This document shows, in pieces, positions 9,991 through 39,479 of a stretch of DNA of 64,000 nt. The stretch lies in IMG/VR virus record IMGVR_UViG_3300008117_000025, positions 1-64,000 of that record. One strand, given 5' to 3'. The notes under the pieces were generated by a model. The model worked only from the letters and a program-made list of their open reading frames with translations, had not been told where the DNA came from and did not search any database. The first letter of the stretch is position 1; each line of letters starts with the position of its first letter. A program made the position numbers and the translations under genes. Source of the stretch: a virus.

Positions 9991-11115
9991 TTAATTAGAA
10001 AGTGGTGCTTTAATTGCTGGATGTGATTGATAATTTTCTAATTGTATATCATCTTCTAATAGGCATTTACAGAAATTATCATTTTGAAATGAATTAAATA
10101 CTGCGATAGCGTCTAAAGGTCCTTCACCGCACGAACCGCTTTCAGTAGGCCAGAATTCAGTGTTAATGTTTAACTTAGGTAATTTATAAGGATGTCTTGA
10201 ACATTGCTCAGCTGCTTGCTCAATATGATTACTATATAAATGTACGTCTCCTAAATTACCAATCAATTCATCAGGTATCATATTTACTGCCTTAGCTATT
10301 ATCTCAAGTAACAATCCATATGAAGCAATATTGAATGGTAAACCTAAAAATGTATCTACTGAACGTTGATTCCACATTAAAGAGATTGCTCTAGTTGGAG
10401 TGTTCCATTCATTATTCATTTTCCATTCCATATCTTCGAGACTCCAATTTTGCCAATCCCAGTAGACACGTCGTTTTTCTCGGGATAAGTCCATTCTTTC
10501 TTCCAAACTCAACACTCTCGTATAAACTTGAAATCCATAATGGCAAGGTGGTAATACCATTTGGTCTAATTCACCTACATTCCAAGCACTAACCATCAAT
10601 CGTCTGCTATCTGGATTTGTTTTGAGTTCTTTGATTAGGTTTCCGATTTGGTCTATGTACACATCATCACCGCCATTATTTTTACCATCCCAACTTCTCC
10701 AGTTCTTACCATAAATCGGTCCTAATTCACCCCATATTTTTGCAAACTTATCATCGGTTTTGATTTTGTTGATGAACTCTTCTTGTGAATAAGGTCTAGC
10801 ACCTAATGTTTTAGTATGCTCAAACATATTTTTACTTAGATAGTTCTTATAAGCGTCACCATCCCAAATATGGCAATTATTATCAACTAAGAATTTAATA
10901 TTAGTATCACCTCTCAAGAACCAAAGTAATTCTGTTACCATTGTTTTGAATGCCATCTTCTTTGTAGTTAACAATGGAAATCCTTCCTTCATATTGTGTC
11001 TGATCTGCCAACCGAAGATTGATTTAGTACCTGTTCCTGTACGGTCTTGTTTTTCAACACCAAAGTGGATGATTTGTTGAAGTAATTCTTTATATTGACG
11101 ATCTAGATTATTCAT
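9991..11115 (-). CDS. thyA: Thymidylate synthase (ThyA type)
   Basis: The enzyme makes dTMP from dUMP with methylenetetrahydrofolate. Recognised motifs are DRTGTGT near the start, the active-site LPPCHYGFQVY (catalytic Cys), SRRLMVSAWNV, and the dUMP-binding QRSVDTFLGLPFNIASYG. At 374 residues it is about 110 longer than the E. coli enzyme. Two insertions explain this: one of about 40-50 residues before GELGPIYGKNWR, as in many bacterial ThyA proteins, and a less usual Trp-rich one of about 45 residues just after the catalytic segment (VYWDWQNWSLEDMEWK). It fits the nucleotide-supply role also seen in the dCTP deaminase-like and phosphoribosyltransferase genes. Confidence 0.95.
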   Translation of the reverse strand: MNNLDRQYKELLQQIIHFGVEKQDRTGTGTKSIFGWQIRHNMKEGFPLLTTKKMAFKTMVTELLWFLRGDTNIKFLVDNNCHIWDGDAYKNYLSKNMFEHTKTLGARPYSQEEFINKIKTDDKFAKIWGELGPIYGKNWRSWDGKNNGGDDVYIDQIGNLIKELKTNPDSRRLMVSAWNVGELDQMVLPPCHYGFQVYTRVLSLEERMDLSREKRRVYWDWQNWSLEDMEWKMNNEWNTPTRAISLMWNQRSVDTFLGLPFNIASYGLLLEIIAKAVNMIPDELIGNLGDVHLYSNHIEQAAEQCSRHPYKLPKLNINTEFWPTESGSCGEGPLDAIAVFNSFQNDNFCKCLLEDDIQLENYQSHPAIKAPLSN

Positions 11116-14959: not shown

Positions 14960-15523
14960 TTAGAATTTTACGAGTACAGAATATTTTTTACGACTTGTTG
15001 AACCATAAGGTACAATACCATTAGGGAATAAAATTGTCACTCGCTTAAATGTTTTTCCATCATTACTAACCATTATACCATAACTTTTAATAGTATGATC
15101 TTCTTCAACATCAAACGTAAGTTTAATTAGATTAGGACCTACTCTTTCTGCGGTAATACCTCCAAATTTAATAGGTAATACAACAGTAGATTGTAATTCA
15201 ACCCAACCATTATCTGGGTTTTGTCTGCAATTTGCCCCTGATTCTCTTTTTACTTTTAAATTTACTTGGGGAGTTTGAGGTGCTGTGATTAGAACTATAG
15301 TCTCTTGTAGACTAGTCATTATTTGAGAGGATGTACCTCCTACTTTATCTATTTTTACTCCTAAATCACAATTAACTTTGTTGATAATTTTGAATATGTG
15401 ACTTCCAGCATTGTAACCAACGTATTCAATTCTCAAAACATTGTTTTCATTTAATTGACCTCCATTTTGGGAGTAACCAAACAAATACAATAACAACATA
15501 ACAAATAACAATAACTTTTTCAT
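14960..15523 (-). CDS. Secreted beta-rich protein, 187 aa
   Basis: A strong signal peptide (MKKLLLFVMLLLYLFGYSQ) is followed by an all-beta domain that looks fibronectin-like or Ig-like (GGITAERVGPNLIKLTFDVE). Two cysteines may form a disulfide. No known family is recognised. It is the promoter-proximal member of a run of exported genes (15523 down to 13615) lying between the RNA block and the lysis cassette. Confidence 0.7.
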   Translation of the reverse strand: MKKLLLFVMLLLYLFGYSQNGGQLNENNVLRIEYVGYNAGSHIFKIINKVNCDLGVKIDKVGGTSSQIMTSLQETIVLITAPQTPQVNLKVKRESGANCRQNPDNGWVELQSTVVLPIKFGGITAERVGPNLIKLTFDVEEDHTIKSYGIMVSNDGKTFKRVTILFPNGIVPYGSTSRKKYSVLVKF

Positions 15524-15544
15524 TTTAGGTACGGTTTAGATTAA

Positions 15545-15573
15545 AAAATAAGGGGCAACCTTGCGGTCGCCCC
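15545..15573 (-). terminator. Rho-independent terminator
   Basis: A 9-bp stem, GGGGCGACC/GGTTGCCCC (15573-15565 with 15560-15552, one G-U pair), carries a GCAA tetraloop and is followed by TTATTTTTT on the minus strand. It is a strong terminator that closes the RNA block. Confidence 0.88.
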
Positions 15574-15866
15574 TGTAAATTGATGGGAATAACGATTACC
15601 CATAACCCCTGAACGGACCCCTTTTCACCCACTATCCACAAAGATGATCAGTCGATGTGTTGAGATAGGCTGGATTGTCTACCAGCGACGCCTGCGGAGA
15701 TCGTCATTGAATTTCTTCGGCGTATCCAGAGCACTGTTGGGTTGCGCATTCTACCCTTAGTGATGGTGGTTTTATCTCATCCGTCTGTAGTACCCAGCTC
15801 AATAGCTTTTCAGCTATATCACCAGTGCCTTAGCCCCTCTCAAGAGCTTATTCGGCCACAGTTTGT
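15545..15866 (-). ncRNA. Structured non-coding RNA of unknown family, about 320 nt
   Basis: No convincing coding frame exists here, and the GC content is clearly above that of the flanks. On the minus strand there are several clean hairpins: ATAGCT-GAAA-AGCTAT (15802-15817), GGCTGG/CCAGCC-type (15668-15687), and ATGGGTAAT-CGTT-ATTCCCAT (15583-15603). A longer CTATC/GATAG enclosure is also visible. The element ends in the strong terminator at 15545-15573 and starts just after an AT-rich box beside the tmRNA 3' end. It matches none of the RNAs I can recognise by eye (RNase P, 6S, SRP, group I intron). The 5' end is uncertain. Confidence 0.65.
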
Positions 15867-15882
15867 ATATATAAATATATTA
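15866..15882 (-). promoter_or_regulatory. AT-rich TATATTTATATA box, possible promoter
   Basis: The minus strand reads ATATATTTATATATAC between the tmRNA 3' end and the structured RNA. Similar TATATTTAT boxes precede several late or replication genes. It may start the RNA at 15866. Confidence 0.35.
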
Positions 15883-15886
15883 AATT

Positions 15887-16285
15887 TGGTGGAGATGGTG
15901 GGATTCGAACCCACGTCTTACTAAGTACCTATAATACTAGCGTTTCACATGCTTAGATCTGAACAAGTCTGATCAGTAGGGCTGACCGTTATGGTCGTTT
16001 CCACCACCCTATTTTATGACTATAGGGAAAACTACGGCTCGCAATATGCGTCCGGATGCCGTCTCTATAGCGTACGACTCGCTGTTGTGTTCTGTTCCTA
16101 GGCTCTCTACCGCCCGATGCGGACTAGGCTGCTAAAGCGTAATCGGCGCCTACGAAAGACATCAAGTCTTCGAAGGTCATAGTTGACATTTCGTCAGTTA
16201 TTGTTTTGTAGCTTTTTAAGACGACACTACCGAACGTCTGCATGTAGTACTATCGATCGCAAAGCAATCAATACCAAACATCCCC
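15887..16285 (-). ncRNA. ssrA: Transfer-messenger RNA (tmRNA)
   Basis: The RNA begins GGGGATG (16285) and ends CATCTCC-ACCA (15887), forming a 7-bp acceptor stem. That stem contains the G3-U pair needed for alanine charging, and the CCA is encoded. The 3' domain GACGTGGGTTCGAATCCCACC and the upstream CUAAGCAUGU segment match bacterial tmRNA. The tag frame starts after AAAACAATAACT, probably at GAC (16195), and runs 23 codons to ...ADYALAA then TAG (16126-16124). It should rescue stalled ribosomes and tag products for ClpXP-type proteolysis. The 23-residue tag is longer than the usual 8-15. Confidence 0.93.
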
Positions 16286-16291
16286 ATATTA

Positions 16292-16615
16292 TCAAAGAAC
16301 TTCTGTTTTCAATTTACGACCTCTTTTCTTACCCTCCAAAATTTTCTTTATTTCAGCACACAATTCATATTCTTCCATTACTATTAAATCATTCATACAA
16401 TTACTAAGTAATTCTTTGTATTGTGATTTATCAATGGTAAACACTAATCCATCTAAATTTTTGAAGGTAATATCAAATATATCTATCTGATCTTTACCTC
16501 GTTTAAAGGCACTTAACACACATTTAGCCATTTTTAAAACAATATCTGGGTCTCTACCTTTGAGTTTAAGGTAAAACTCATCACTGTTTTTTAAATTTAA
16601 ATAATGACATGCCAT
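16292..16615 (-). CDS. Hypothetical protein, 107 aa
   Basis: The ATG at 16615 (MACHYLNLKN) is used because the longer frame starting at 16657 reads into the tRNA gene. The product is a basic helical protein with EEYELCAEIKKILEGKKRGRK at the end, reminiscent of the UVR motif of UvrB/UvrC (EEYExAAxIRD), which mediates protein contacts. The resemblance is short and may be chance. It lies between tmRNA and tRNA-Leu. Confidence 0.65.
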   Translation of the reverse strand: MACHYLNLKNSDEFYLKLKGRDPDIVLKMAKCVLSAFKRGKDQIDIFDITFKNLDGLVFTIDKSQYKELLSNCMNDLIVMEEYELCAEIKKILEGKKRGRKLKTEVL

Positions 16616-16717: not shown

Positions 16718-16863
16718 AAGAGTGGGTCTATTCCCCACAGTCAGAAGAACTTGAAACTTACCTACGCACCAGTGAGGTATTCTTCGTGGTTGTTCACAGA
16801 GCTTGTTCAGCGTGCACCATTCCAAGTTGTCGTGCGTGTCAATTAAGACGTACTGTGTTCAGG
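16718..16863 (-). other. Non-coding spacer, possibly part of a structured RNA
   Basis: This 146-nt stretch between tRNA-Leu and the tRNA-like element has no coding frame. It includes a GTGGG-GAATAGA-CCCAC hairpin (16722-16738) whose 7-base loop looks like an anticodon arm, and a second run, GCTGAACAAGCTCTGTGAAC. It may be the tail of the upstream tRNA-like transcript or a decayed tRNA. Its identity is unresolved. Confidence 0.4.
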
Positions 16864-17020
16864 CTGTAAGGGAAGGAGTCGAACCTTCACGCTGCGATTC
16901 AGTAATGGACAAAATAGCCGGCTTTGTGGTCAACCCATATCTATTTACCTATTTCGTTTTTCAGCGCCCACGAGACGAGTGGGGGTGTCTGCCAGACCTA
17001 GGTCATTTCACCACCTTACA
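16864..17020 (-). other. tRNA-like element, 157 nt, expanded or intron-bearing
   Basis: The ends form a perfect 7-bp acceptor stem, TGTAAGG/CCTTACA (17020-17014 with 16871-16865), with discriminator G. The 3' part has a canonical T-arm, GAAGG-TTCGACT-CCTTC. The 5' part has a Leu/Ser-like D-arm (TGGTGAAAT ... TGGCAGACACC) interrupted by the perfect 10-bp palindrome GACCTAGGTC. A CCCAC-TCGTCTC-GTGGG hairpin sits in the anticodon position but lacks the invariant U33. About 70 extra nucleotides lie where a variable arm should be. It is not a standard tRNA. It may be a tRNA with an insertion, a tRNA mimic or a decayed gene. Confidence 0.55.
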
Positions 17021-17021
17021 A

Positions 17022-17219
17022 TCATTGTTTTCTCTCTTTATATAACCTAATCCATGTCATTGAGACATCGACTGCCATTAAAACGGGAGCCATTACTAGA
17101 ATAGCTAGTGTTTCTAGGGCTGGAGTTGCATAGAGAGGATCGTTATTTTTCTTACTGTAACTATTATACATTTTATAGATACAATAAATAACTGATATTA
17201 TATAAATTGCTAAGATCAT
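17022..17219 (-). CDS. Small membrane protein, 65 aa
   Basis: Two hydrophobic segments (MILAIYIISVIYCIY at the N-terminus and ETLAILVMAPVLMAVDVSM in the middle) are separated by a polar loop. The C-terminus is basic. It overlaps its upstream gene by four bases, supporting a real gene. Function is unknown. Confidence 0.65.
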   Translation of the reverse strand: MILAIYIISVIYCIYKMYNSYSKKNNDPLYATPALETLAILVMAPVLMAVDVSMTWIRLYKERKQ

Positions 17220-37868: not shown

Positions 37869-39479
37869 TTACATTCCAAATTGTGACAAATCAACCTCAT
37901 CTTTCTTTTTCTCAGCTGGTTTATCATGGATAACACATTCTGTCATTAGGAGTGTAACCGCAGCTGCTGCTGCGTTTTCAAGTGCACAACGTACTACTTT
38001 AGTAGGATCGATAATACCTGATTTGAAAGCATCTACTGTTCTTTCCTCGTTGATGTCAGGAACAGCGTTTTTTTCTTTTAGCGCTTGGATCCACTCATAA
38101 TAGTCTTCACCAGCATTAGTTAGAATTTTTTGGAGGGGTTGGTTACATGCTTTAAATACAATTTGACCTCCCAATCCAAAATCACTGTTATCTCTATTTT
38201 TAATTACATTTTTAGCATTAAATAGAGCCATACCTGCACCTGGTAAGATACCCTCTTCAAGTGCTGCTTTAGTTGCTTGGAGAGCATCGTCAATGCGGTC
38301 TTTTCTTTCCTTCATTTCTACTTCAGTACCTCCACCTACATTGATAATAGCTACACCACCTACAATCTTAGCAAGGCGATCTTGTAAACGCTCGATTTCG
38401 TATGGTGAATTTGCTTGATCGATTTGAGCTTTTAATTCATCAATGCGAGCATCTATTTTCTCAGTTTCACCTTTACCATCAACAATTGTAGTAGTATCTT
38501 TACCTACAGTGATTGTTCTAGCACTACCTAACCAGGACATATTAAACTTATCCAGTTTCATTCCTTTTTGTGGTGAAACCAAAGTACCACCAGTTACAAT
38601 AGCAATATCTTCAAGGATAAGTGTTCTACGATCTCCAAAGTCAGGTGCTTTGACAGCTACCACTTTTAAAATACCTCTCATTTTATTTACAATGAGTGTT
38701 GAAAGTGCTTCACCATCAATATCTTCAGCTACAATCAATAACGACTTATTATCTGAGGAAATGCGTTCGAGGATAGGGAGGAGATCTTTTACAGCGCTAA
38801 TTCTACCATCAAACAATAAAATAGAGGCATCAGTAAGTACTGCTTGCATTGTATTATTATCAGTCACCATATAAGGTGATTTATAACCTCTATCAAACTG
38901 AAGACCTTCTACTACTTCAAGTGATGTTTCACCTGAACGAGATTCTTCCACTGTTACAATACCATCTCTTCCTACTTTATCAATTGCTGTAGCAACTAAT
39001 TCTCCAATTTCCTCATCCCCATTAGCTGAGAGTGTAGCAATTTGTTTAATTTGCTTTTCATCAGTGATATCTACAGATGATGCTCTCAATTCAGATACTA
39101 CATCCTTAACTGCTTCTTCAATACCACGTTTTACTTGAGTAACATTAACTGATGGTTTTGATGTTGCCTCAAGTGCTTGGTCAGCAACAGACCATGCTAG
39201 TAGAGTTGAAGTAGTGGTTCCATCACCTGCTTGATCAACTGTTTTTTGTGCTGCTTGTTTAATTACAGTTGCAGCCATGTTTTCAATTGGATCTTCTAAA
39301 GTAATGGTTTTAGCAACAGTAACACCATCTTTAGTTGATGCTACTTGTCCATGATCTTTTTCAATCAATACATTACGCCCAAAAGGACCCATTGTTACTG
39401 TTACAGCATCGTGTACTTTTTTAATACCGGCTTGTAGTTTTTCTTTCGCTTCACGATCAAATTTAATTATTTTACTCAT
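37869..39479 (-). CDS. groEL: Chaperonin GroEL
   Basis: Family motifs include VTMGPFGRNVLI, AGDGTTTSTLLA, the VEGLQFDRGYKSPYMVT phrase and GGTEVEMKERKDRIDDALQATKAA. The ATP-site residues DGTTT are intact. The 536-residue length is close to E. coli GroEL (548). The usual C-terminal GGM-repeat tail is replaced by a charged end, EVDLSQFGM. It should fold phage proteins together with the adjacent GroES. Confidence 0.96.
   Translation of the reverse strand: MSKIIKFDREAKEKLQAGIKKVHDAVTVTMGPFGRNVLIEKDHGQVASTKDGVTVAKTITLEDPIENMAATVIKQAAQKTVDQAGDGTTTSTLLAWSVADQALEATSKPSVNVTQVKRGIEEAVKDVVSELRASSVDITDEKQIKQIATLSANGDEEIGELVATAIDKVGRDGIVTVEESRSGETSLEVVEGLQFDRGYKSPYMVTDNNTMQAVLTDASILLFDGRISAVKDLLPILERISSDNKSLLIVAEDIDGEALSTLIVNKMRGILKVVAVKAPDFGDRRTLILEDIAIVTGGTLVSPQKGMKLDKFNMSWLGSARTITVGKDTTTIVDGKGETEKIDARIDELKAQIDQANSPYEIERLQDRLAKIVGGVAIINVGGGTEVEMKERKDRIDDALQATKAALEEGILPGAGMALFNAKNVIKNRDNSDFGLGGQIVFKACNQPLQKILTNAGEDYYEWIQALKEKNAVPDINEERTVDAFKSGIIDPTKVVRCALENAAAAAVTLLMTECVIHDKPAEKKKDEVDLSQFGM

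Follow-up and report, generated by a model that had tools for sequence, protein, structure and literature searches.

A structured phage RNA with two palindromic loops, distantly related to manA, in a tmRNA/tRNA cluster

The locus and its genomic context

The window analyzed here is a stretch of 64,000 nucleotides (positions 1 to 64,000) of the virus record IMGVR_UViG_3300008117_000025 in IMG/VR, a record of 182,846 bases that contains a single copy of the structured RNA described below. The conserved span of this RNA runs on the minus strand from approximately position 15,866 to the end of a terminator at approximately 15,543, just 3' of a tmRNA gene (Table 1). The initial annotation had described the stretch as an RNA adjacent to but separate from the tmRNA, with elevated GC, no coding frame, a GAAA-capped hairpin and a terminator, and all of these features were recovered. 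The tmRNA was independently called by Rfam and ARAGORN, the GC content is 0.47 compared with 0.30-0.33 in most of the flanking gene windows, and the sole overlapping open reading frame of at least 60 amino acids (15742-15924) is antisense and extends into the tmRNA gene. The terminator stem consists of 10 pairs (15574-15551) followed by TATTTTTT.

No strand had been given in that annotation, and the minus strand was assigned in the present analysis. Folding of the minus strand gave -99.8 kcal/mol (z -1.75, with 3 of 100 shuffles equally good), which by itself is mildly unusual and not decisive; the RNA is judged to be real because of its conservation and covariation rather than its fold energy. 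A plus-strand transcript was rejected, as its fold is weaker (z -1.26) and no terminator-like site lies at the end of the stretch on that strand.

Table 1. Positions of the RNA, its structural elements and neighboring features in the window
Feature	Position	Strand	Characteristics
Structured RNA	15545..15866	minus	core of ~295 nt plus terminator; 31 distinct homologues, covariation
Intrinsic terminator	15543..15574	minus	10-bp GC-rich stem and U run
P10 hairpin	15583..15603	minus	AUGGGUAAUCGUUAUUCCCAU; 100% of cells paired
P4 helix	3' strand 15612..15618, 5' strand 15779-15785	minus	closes central multi-branch domain
P9 arm ending in hairpin B	15632..15668	minus	CACAUCG-ACUGAUCAU-CUUUGUG; P9 100% of cells paired
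Loop B palindrome	15645..15650	minus	UGAUCA in 9-nt loop; self-complementary in 30/31 members (97%)
P8 hairpin	15669..15686	minus	GGUAG..CAA loop; 100% of cells paired
P7 arm	15688..15723	minus	invariant GAUCUNNGC in loop; 98.7% of cells paired, double changes at 3/5 pairs
Hairpin A arm	15732..15762	minus	78-84% of cells paired, with double changes
Loop A palindrome	15743..15748	minus	UGCGCA; self-complementary in 18/19 alignable members (95%)
P3 arm	15794..15825	minus	GAAA tetraloop cap; P3 85%, distal stem 93% of cells paired; double changes
Hairpin P2a	15832..15848	minus	conserved UUGAGAG then UAAGGC; 100% of cells paired, double changes at 5/7 pairs
5' conserved element	15848..15859	minus	GUGGCCGAAUAA; GUG[GA]C.GAAUAA in nearly all members
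Promoter-like motif (candidate)	15868..15877	minus	TATTTATATA, in the 20-nt spacer from tmRNA 3' end to RNA
tmRNA gene	15887..16285	minus	directly upstream of RNA; Rfam 79.3 bits, E 3.8e-29; ARAGORN
rrn boxA-like motif	16288..16300	minus	GUUCUUUGAUAAU (also given as GTTCTTTGATAAT), just upstream of tmRNA
Conserved element	16718-16842	minus	~125 nt, directly upstream of tRNA-Leu; 11 distinct homologues
Conserved tRNA-like RNA	16863-17022	minus	~160 nt; 37 distinct homologues
GroEL-like chaperonin	37869-39479	minus	phage-encoded; phrog_5725, E 7e-151

The surroundings of the RNA differ among the three clades of homologues described below. In five members of clade 1 (the window, L023, L092, L087 and L113), it starts 6-24 nt past the 3' end of a tmRNA. 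A terminator of its own ends the RNA in the window and in the majority of clade 1; the stem of this terminator varies in sequence, while pairing is preserved in most clade-1 members. The RNA also occurs without an adjacent tmRNA, namely in clades 2 and 3 and in L063, L038 and L090. In clade 2 it begins about 7 nt after one tRNA and stops 10-15 nt before the next, and in clade 3 a GTTCTTTGACATTTG motif is found upstream and a tRNA downstream. In both of these clades the RNA lies 10-30 nt before a tRNA and has no terminator, and tRNA maturation could set its 3' end. What lies downstream varies: in clade 1 unrelated small ORFs or, in some members, tRNAs, and in the other two clades tRNAs.

Several putative expression signals were identified. 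The 10-mer TATTTATATA occurs twice in the 64-kb window, and in six homologues (L020, L063, L038, L103, L086 and L095) TATTTATA precedes the RNA by 15-70 nt; both are candidate promoters. A motif nearly identical to the boxA-like one, GTTCTTTGACATATTG, is present about 200 nt before the 23S rRNA in a Mucilaginibacter genome (L311, at about 1501; the start of the 23S rRNA was recognized by eye), and because of this position the motif is read as a probable rrn-type boxA. The host-like boxA motif GTTCTTTGA stands just before the phage tmRNA and also, in clade 3, just before the RNA itself. Stable-RNA genes of these phages may borrow rRNA antitermination.

Two other conserved elements were observed in the cluster. 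Neither ARAGORN nor Rfam called the RNA at 16863-17022. It has a 7-bp stem resembling an acceptor stem, a D-arm-like portion, an anticodon-like stem whose loop carries the nearly invariant motif CGUCU, a T arm and a variable arm spanning about 75 nt; it appears to be a tRNA-like RNA with a giant variable arm. Two tandem copies of this type (10115-10271 and 10280-10427) were found in one contig, L029. The element preceding tRNA-Leu carries UUGACACGCACG at its start and a T-arm-like hairpin at its end.

Homologues and their distribution

About 60 related contigs were gathered via neighboring proteins (ClpP-like and HNH-like), and five of these proved to carry the RNA on nucleotide comparison. 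The set then grew through pattern scans and profile searches to 31 distinct sequences from approximately 40 IMG/VR viral contigs, which form three clades separated by well-supported branches on the RNA tree. Every record searched whole contained at most one copy. No homologue was detected by blastn of named phages or plasmids, or under strict filters in 395 Bacteroidota genomes, and a pattern scan of genome contigs yielded no true member among the matches listed, which is not evidence of absence. A search of 62 loci from phage relatives without a previously known RNA matched only L288, L293 and L299, which themselves originated from the RNA pattern scan. The RNA is missing from eight of eight long relatives (155-179 kb), implying that it is an accessory, dispensable gene.

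Secondary structure and covariation

Covariation analysis, which had been suggested along with the initial annotation, was carried out on the homologues and revealed a strong signal. On alignment A4, 94.0% of cells are paired in a 68-pair structure, compared with 77.3% in shuffled alignments and at most 46% when the structure is slid along the alignment. Double changes were found at 45 of the 68 pairs (shuffled mean 32.6), comprising 382 cells versus 131.9 in shuffles. Moreover, an unbiased scan of all column pairs recovered the same helices, together with a terminal helix joining the two ends of the RNA.

The 5' part of the molecule comprises this terminal helix, the GUGRC-GAAUAA element with hairpin P2a, and the GAAA-capped arm P3, in which CUGAAAAG is nearly invariant across the alignment. 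In the central part, the long helix P4 (95.4% of cells paired, double changes at 5/7 pairs) encloses hairpin A, P7, P8 and P9 with hairpin B, and P10 follows. The stem of hairpin B is paired in 85% of cells, with double changes at 5/7 pairs; the alignment of hairpin A is blurred by indels in the loop flanks.

Relationship with manA RNA

The only Rfam families reaching their cut-offs in the window are tmRNA and one tRNA. An Rfam search, also proposed earlier, assigned the RNA of the window and of 11 homologue loci to no family at the gathering score; models of RNase P, SRP, 6S, group I introns, ROOL, GOLLD and OLE likewise gave no cut-off match in the window or these loci. The suggestion of a new phage RNA class is therefore upheld in part, since a genuine structured RNA without a cut-off match is present, but it is a distant relative of manA RNA (RF01745) rather than wholly new.

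Among Rfam matches under the threshold, manA ranks first within the RNA in all three clades. When the RF01745 model was searched against the 182,846 bases of the genome to which the window belongs, this RNA was the best site (19.9 bits, E 5.1e-4, model positions 1-192 covered), followed by a site with E 0.14. Clade-2 records matched at E 8.5e-8 to 3.4e-7, and 14 control genomes gave no match. The best homologue score (31.1 bits, in clade 2) falls below the Rfam gathering score of 55.2 bits, and the similarity is statistically significant across the whole model. In the reverse direction, model R1 searched without filters against 501 bases of cyanophage P-SSM2 found manA as its best hit (E 9.2e-4; next hit 0.68), and found nothing in P-SSM2 manA under default filters. 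On the basis of these sub-threshold but consistent and reciprocal covariance-model matches, we conclude that the RNA is a distant, enlarged manA homologue lying below the membership cut-off of Rfam.

Both RNAs occur in large tailed phages and share the terminal helix, a multi-branch domain in the center, a 5' element in which GUGACUGAAUAA is followed by a hairpin and UAAGGU, and a GUGGGUANNCAGNAAUCCCAC hairpin on the 3' side. The GUGACUGAAUAA element is almost the same in the two RNAs, as is the P10 hairpin. The combination of this element with a GGGUA..CAG.A.UCCC 3' hairpin, as in manA, is found here as well. GUGACUGAA(U/C)AA occurs in 7/7 cyanophage manA RNAs checked, and a single position separates the P10 hairpin of homologue L286, GUGGGUAUUCAGUAAUCCCAC, from the consensus hairpin of manA, GUGGGUAUACAGUAAUCCCAC. 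On the other hand, the RNA is about 295 positions long versus 192 for manA, has extra arms (among them both palindromic hairpins), and forms a separate unit within tmRNA/tRNA clusters, with a terminator or a tRNA behind it, whereas manA lies in 5' UTRs before metabolic genes. The boxA motif hints at Bacteroidota as hosts of the present phages, against cyanophages for manA. Weinberg et al. (2010; PMC2864571) described manA as an element of 5' UTRs and a candidate riboswitch, and it was later reported in one further cyanophage with its role left open (PMC9964418). Cyanophage manA RNAs often precede genes, and that of P-SSM2 ends 15 nt before purL.

Two palindromic loops

A scan of all 6-column windows of the alignment identified only two that are at least 95% self-complementary, which correspond to loops A and B; the next window reached 19%. 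Among the alignable members, loop A reads UGCGCA in 16 and UGUACA in two, and UGGCCA serves as loop A in two further members in which the loop is displaced by indels. Loop B reads UGAUCA in 25 members and UAGCUA in five. On the RNA tree, UGUACA appears in two well-separated clades and UGGCCA requires two origins. When the loops were scored as self-pairs, 12 cells were double-changed and none was changed on one side only, with 97.4% paired. Since adjacent nucleotides cannot pair within one molecule, such self-pair covariation points to pairing between identical molecules, and the switching of palindromic words suggests that copies of the RNA pair with each other via loops A and B.

Exceptions were also found. 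The loop A of clade 3 retains only a weak GCGU self-match involving G-U, and L117 carries a long insertion. In L129 (1335-1645), an insertion replaces the loop B palindrome and loop A offers wobble pairing only, making it a natural exception to the kissing-loop rule. The predicted accessibility of the loops is variable (0.22-0.98).

The argument from palindrome switching also underlies the symmetric kissing loops OLE B3 and GOLLD B8 (PMC12286853). Like ROOL and GOLLD, the present RNA is phage-encoded, non-coding and near tRNA genes, and it shares symmetric kissing loops with palindrome switching with ROOL, GOLLD and OLE (PMC12286853), here as a sequence signature only. In OLE, a loop tetranucleotide switches among the palindromes GGCC, GAUC and AGCU (PMC12286853), much as loops A and B do. 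In contrast, GOLLD exceeds 800 nt and the RNA here is well under half that length; OLE is not described as an RNA of phage tRNA clusters in PMC12286853; and no match to any of the three covariance models was seen in the window stretch (E threshold 10) or in L301 and L119 (E threshold 1).

Alternative explanations

Different readings of the loops were considered. The RNA might act in trans as a monomer, its palindromic loops having another RNA or a symmetric protein as partner and not each other. Hairpin loops in many regulatory RNAs serve as antisense seeds, and the loops here are conserved and predicted to be partly accessible. A target-directed seed, however, has no need of self-complementarity, and the all-palindromic word switches, the lack of one-sided changes and the repeated independent gains would need a special reason, making this reading rather unlikely. 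It is also conceivable that loop B forms an intramolecular pseudoknot through GAUC-GAUC pairing with the P7 loop, leaving at most one intermolecular contact. The GAUC of the P7 loop is invariant and complementary to UGAUCA, and the pairing is possible in clades 1 and 3, but the clade-2 combination of UAGCUA in loop B with GAUCU in the P7 loop makes it impossible, and the palindrome is still kept there; this alternative is considered improbable.

Regarding function, the annotation of manA and the placement of the P-SSM2 copy before purL would favor a cis-regulatory element or riboswitch acting on the same-strand gene 14960-15523, which begins about 20 nt past the window terminator. Because the downstream genes are not conserved, such a role is disfavored here; moreover, the terminator stem is not one of the conserved helices, and clades 2 and 3 lack it. 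This possibility is regarded as very improbable. A by-product of the tmRNA, i.e., a duplicated or permuted piece, has almost no probability. The tmRNA_permuted family (RF04321) matched weakly across the end of the tmRNA and a portion of the RNA (22.4 bits, E 0.015, against a cut-off of 47 bits), but the aligned part is the true tmRNA 3' end plus a short stem, and the RNA has a structure of its own and occurs without an adjacent tmRNA, so this candidate was rejected as contradicted by the homologues.

Proposed model and implications

The explanation that we favor, and consider reasonably probable, is that a stand-alone, trans-acting, manA-homologous phage RNA of about 300 nt belongs to the stable-RNA cluster and that its copies are joined by two symmetric kissing loops. 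It would be transcribed by read-through from the tmRNA or from the spacer promoter, possibly aided by the rrn-type boxA, and would fold into a closed multi-helix domain. Copies would then pair A with A and B with B, and two independent self-complementary contacts per molecule could string them into chains or close them into rings, giving dimers or larger assemblies made only of RNA, of a kind that may resemble those of OLE, ROOL and GOLLD. Our best guess is that the assembly would act on translation or some other host machinery in infected cells, as a scaffold or as a sequestering particle.

The broader proposal, that a phage RNA of only about 300 nt self-assembles into rings or cages via two kissing loops and that the manA superfamily includes trans-acting structural RNAs of tRNA/tmRNA clusters, is more tentative, with a somewhat less than even chance of being correct. 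Oligomerization may not hold across the superfamily, since no matching variable palindromic loops were seen in the cyanophage manA RNAs examined and these often lie before genes. The literature found gives no established function for manA since 2010 and files it as a cis-regulator; a stand-alone branch with signatures of oligomerization provides a testable alternative to that view. If the RNA assembles, it would be a far smaller addition to the short list of natural RNA-only assemblies, convenient for structural work, and would tie self-assembling RNAs more closely to phage tRNA clusters.
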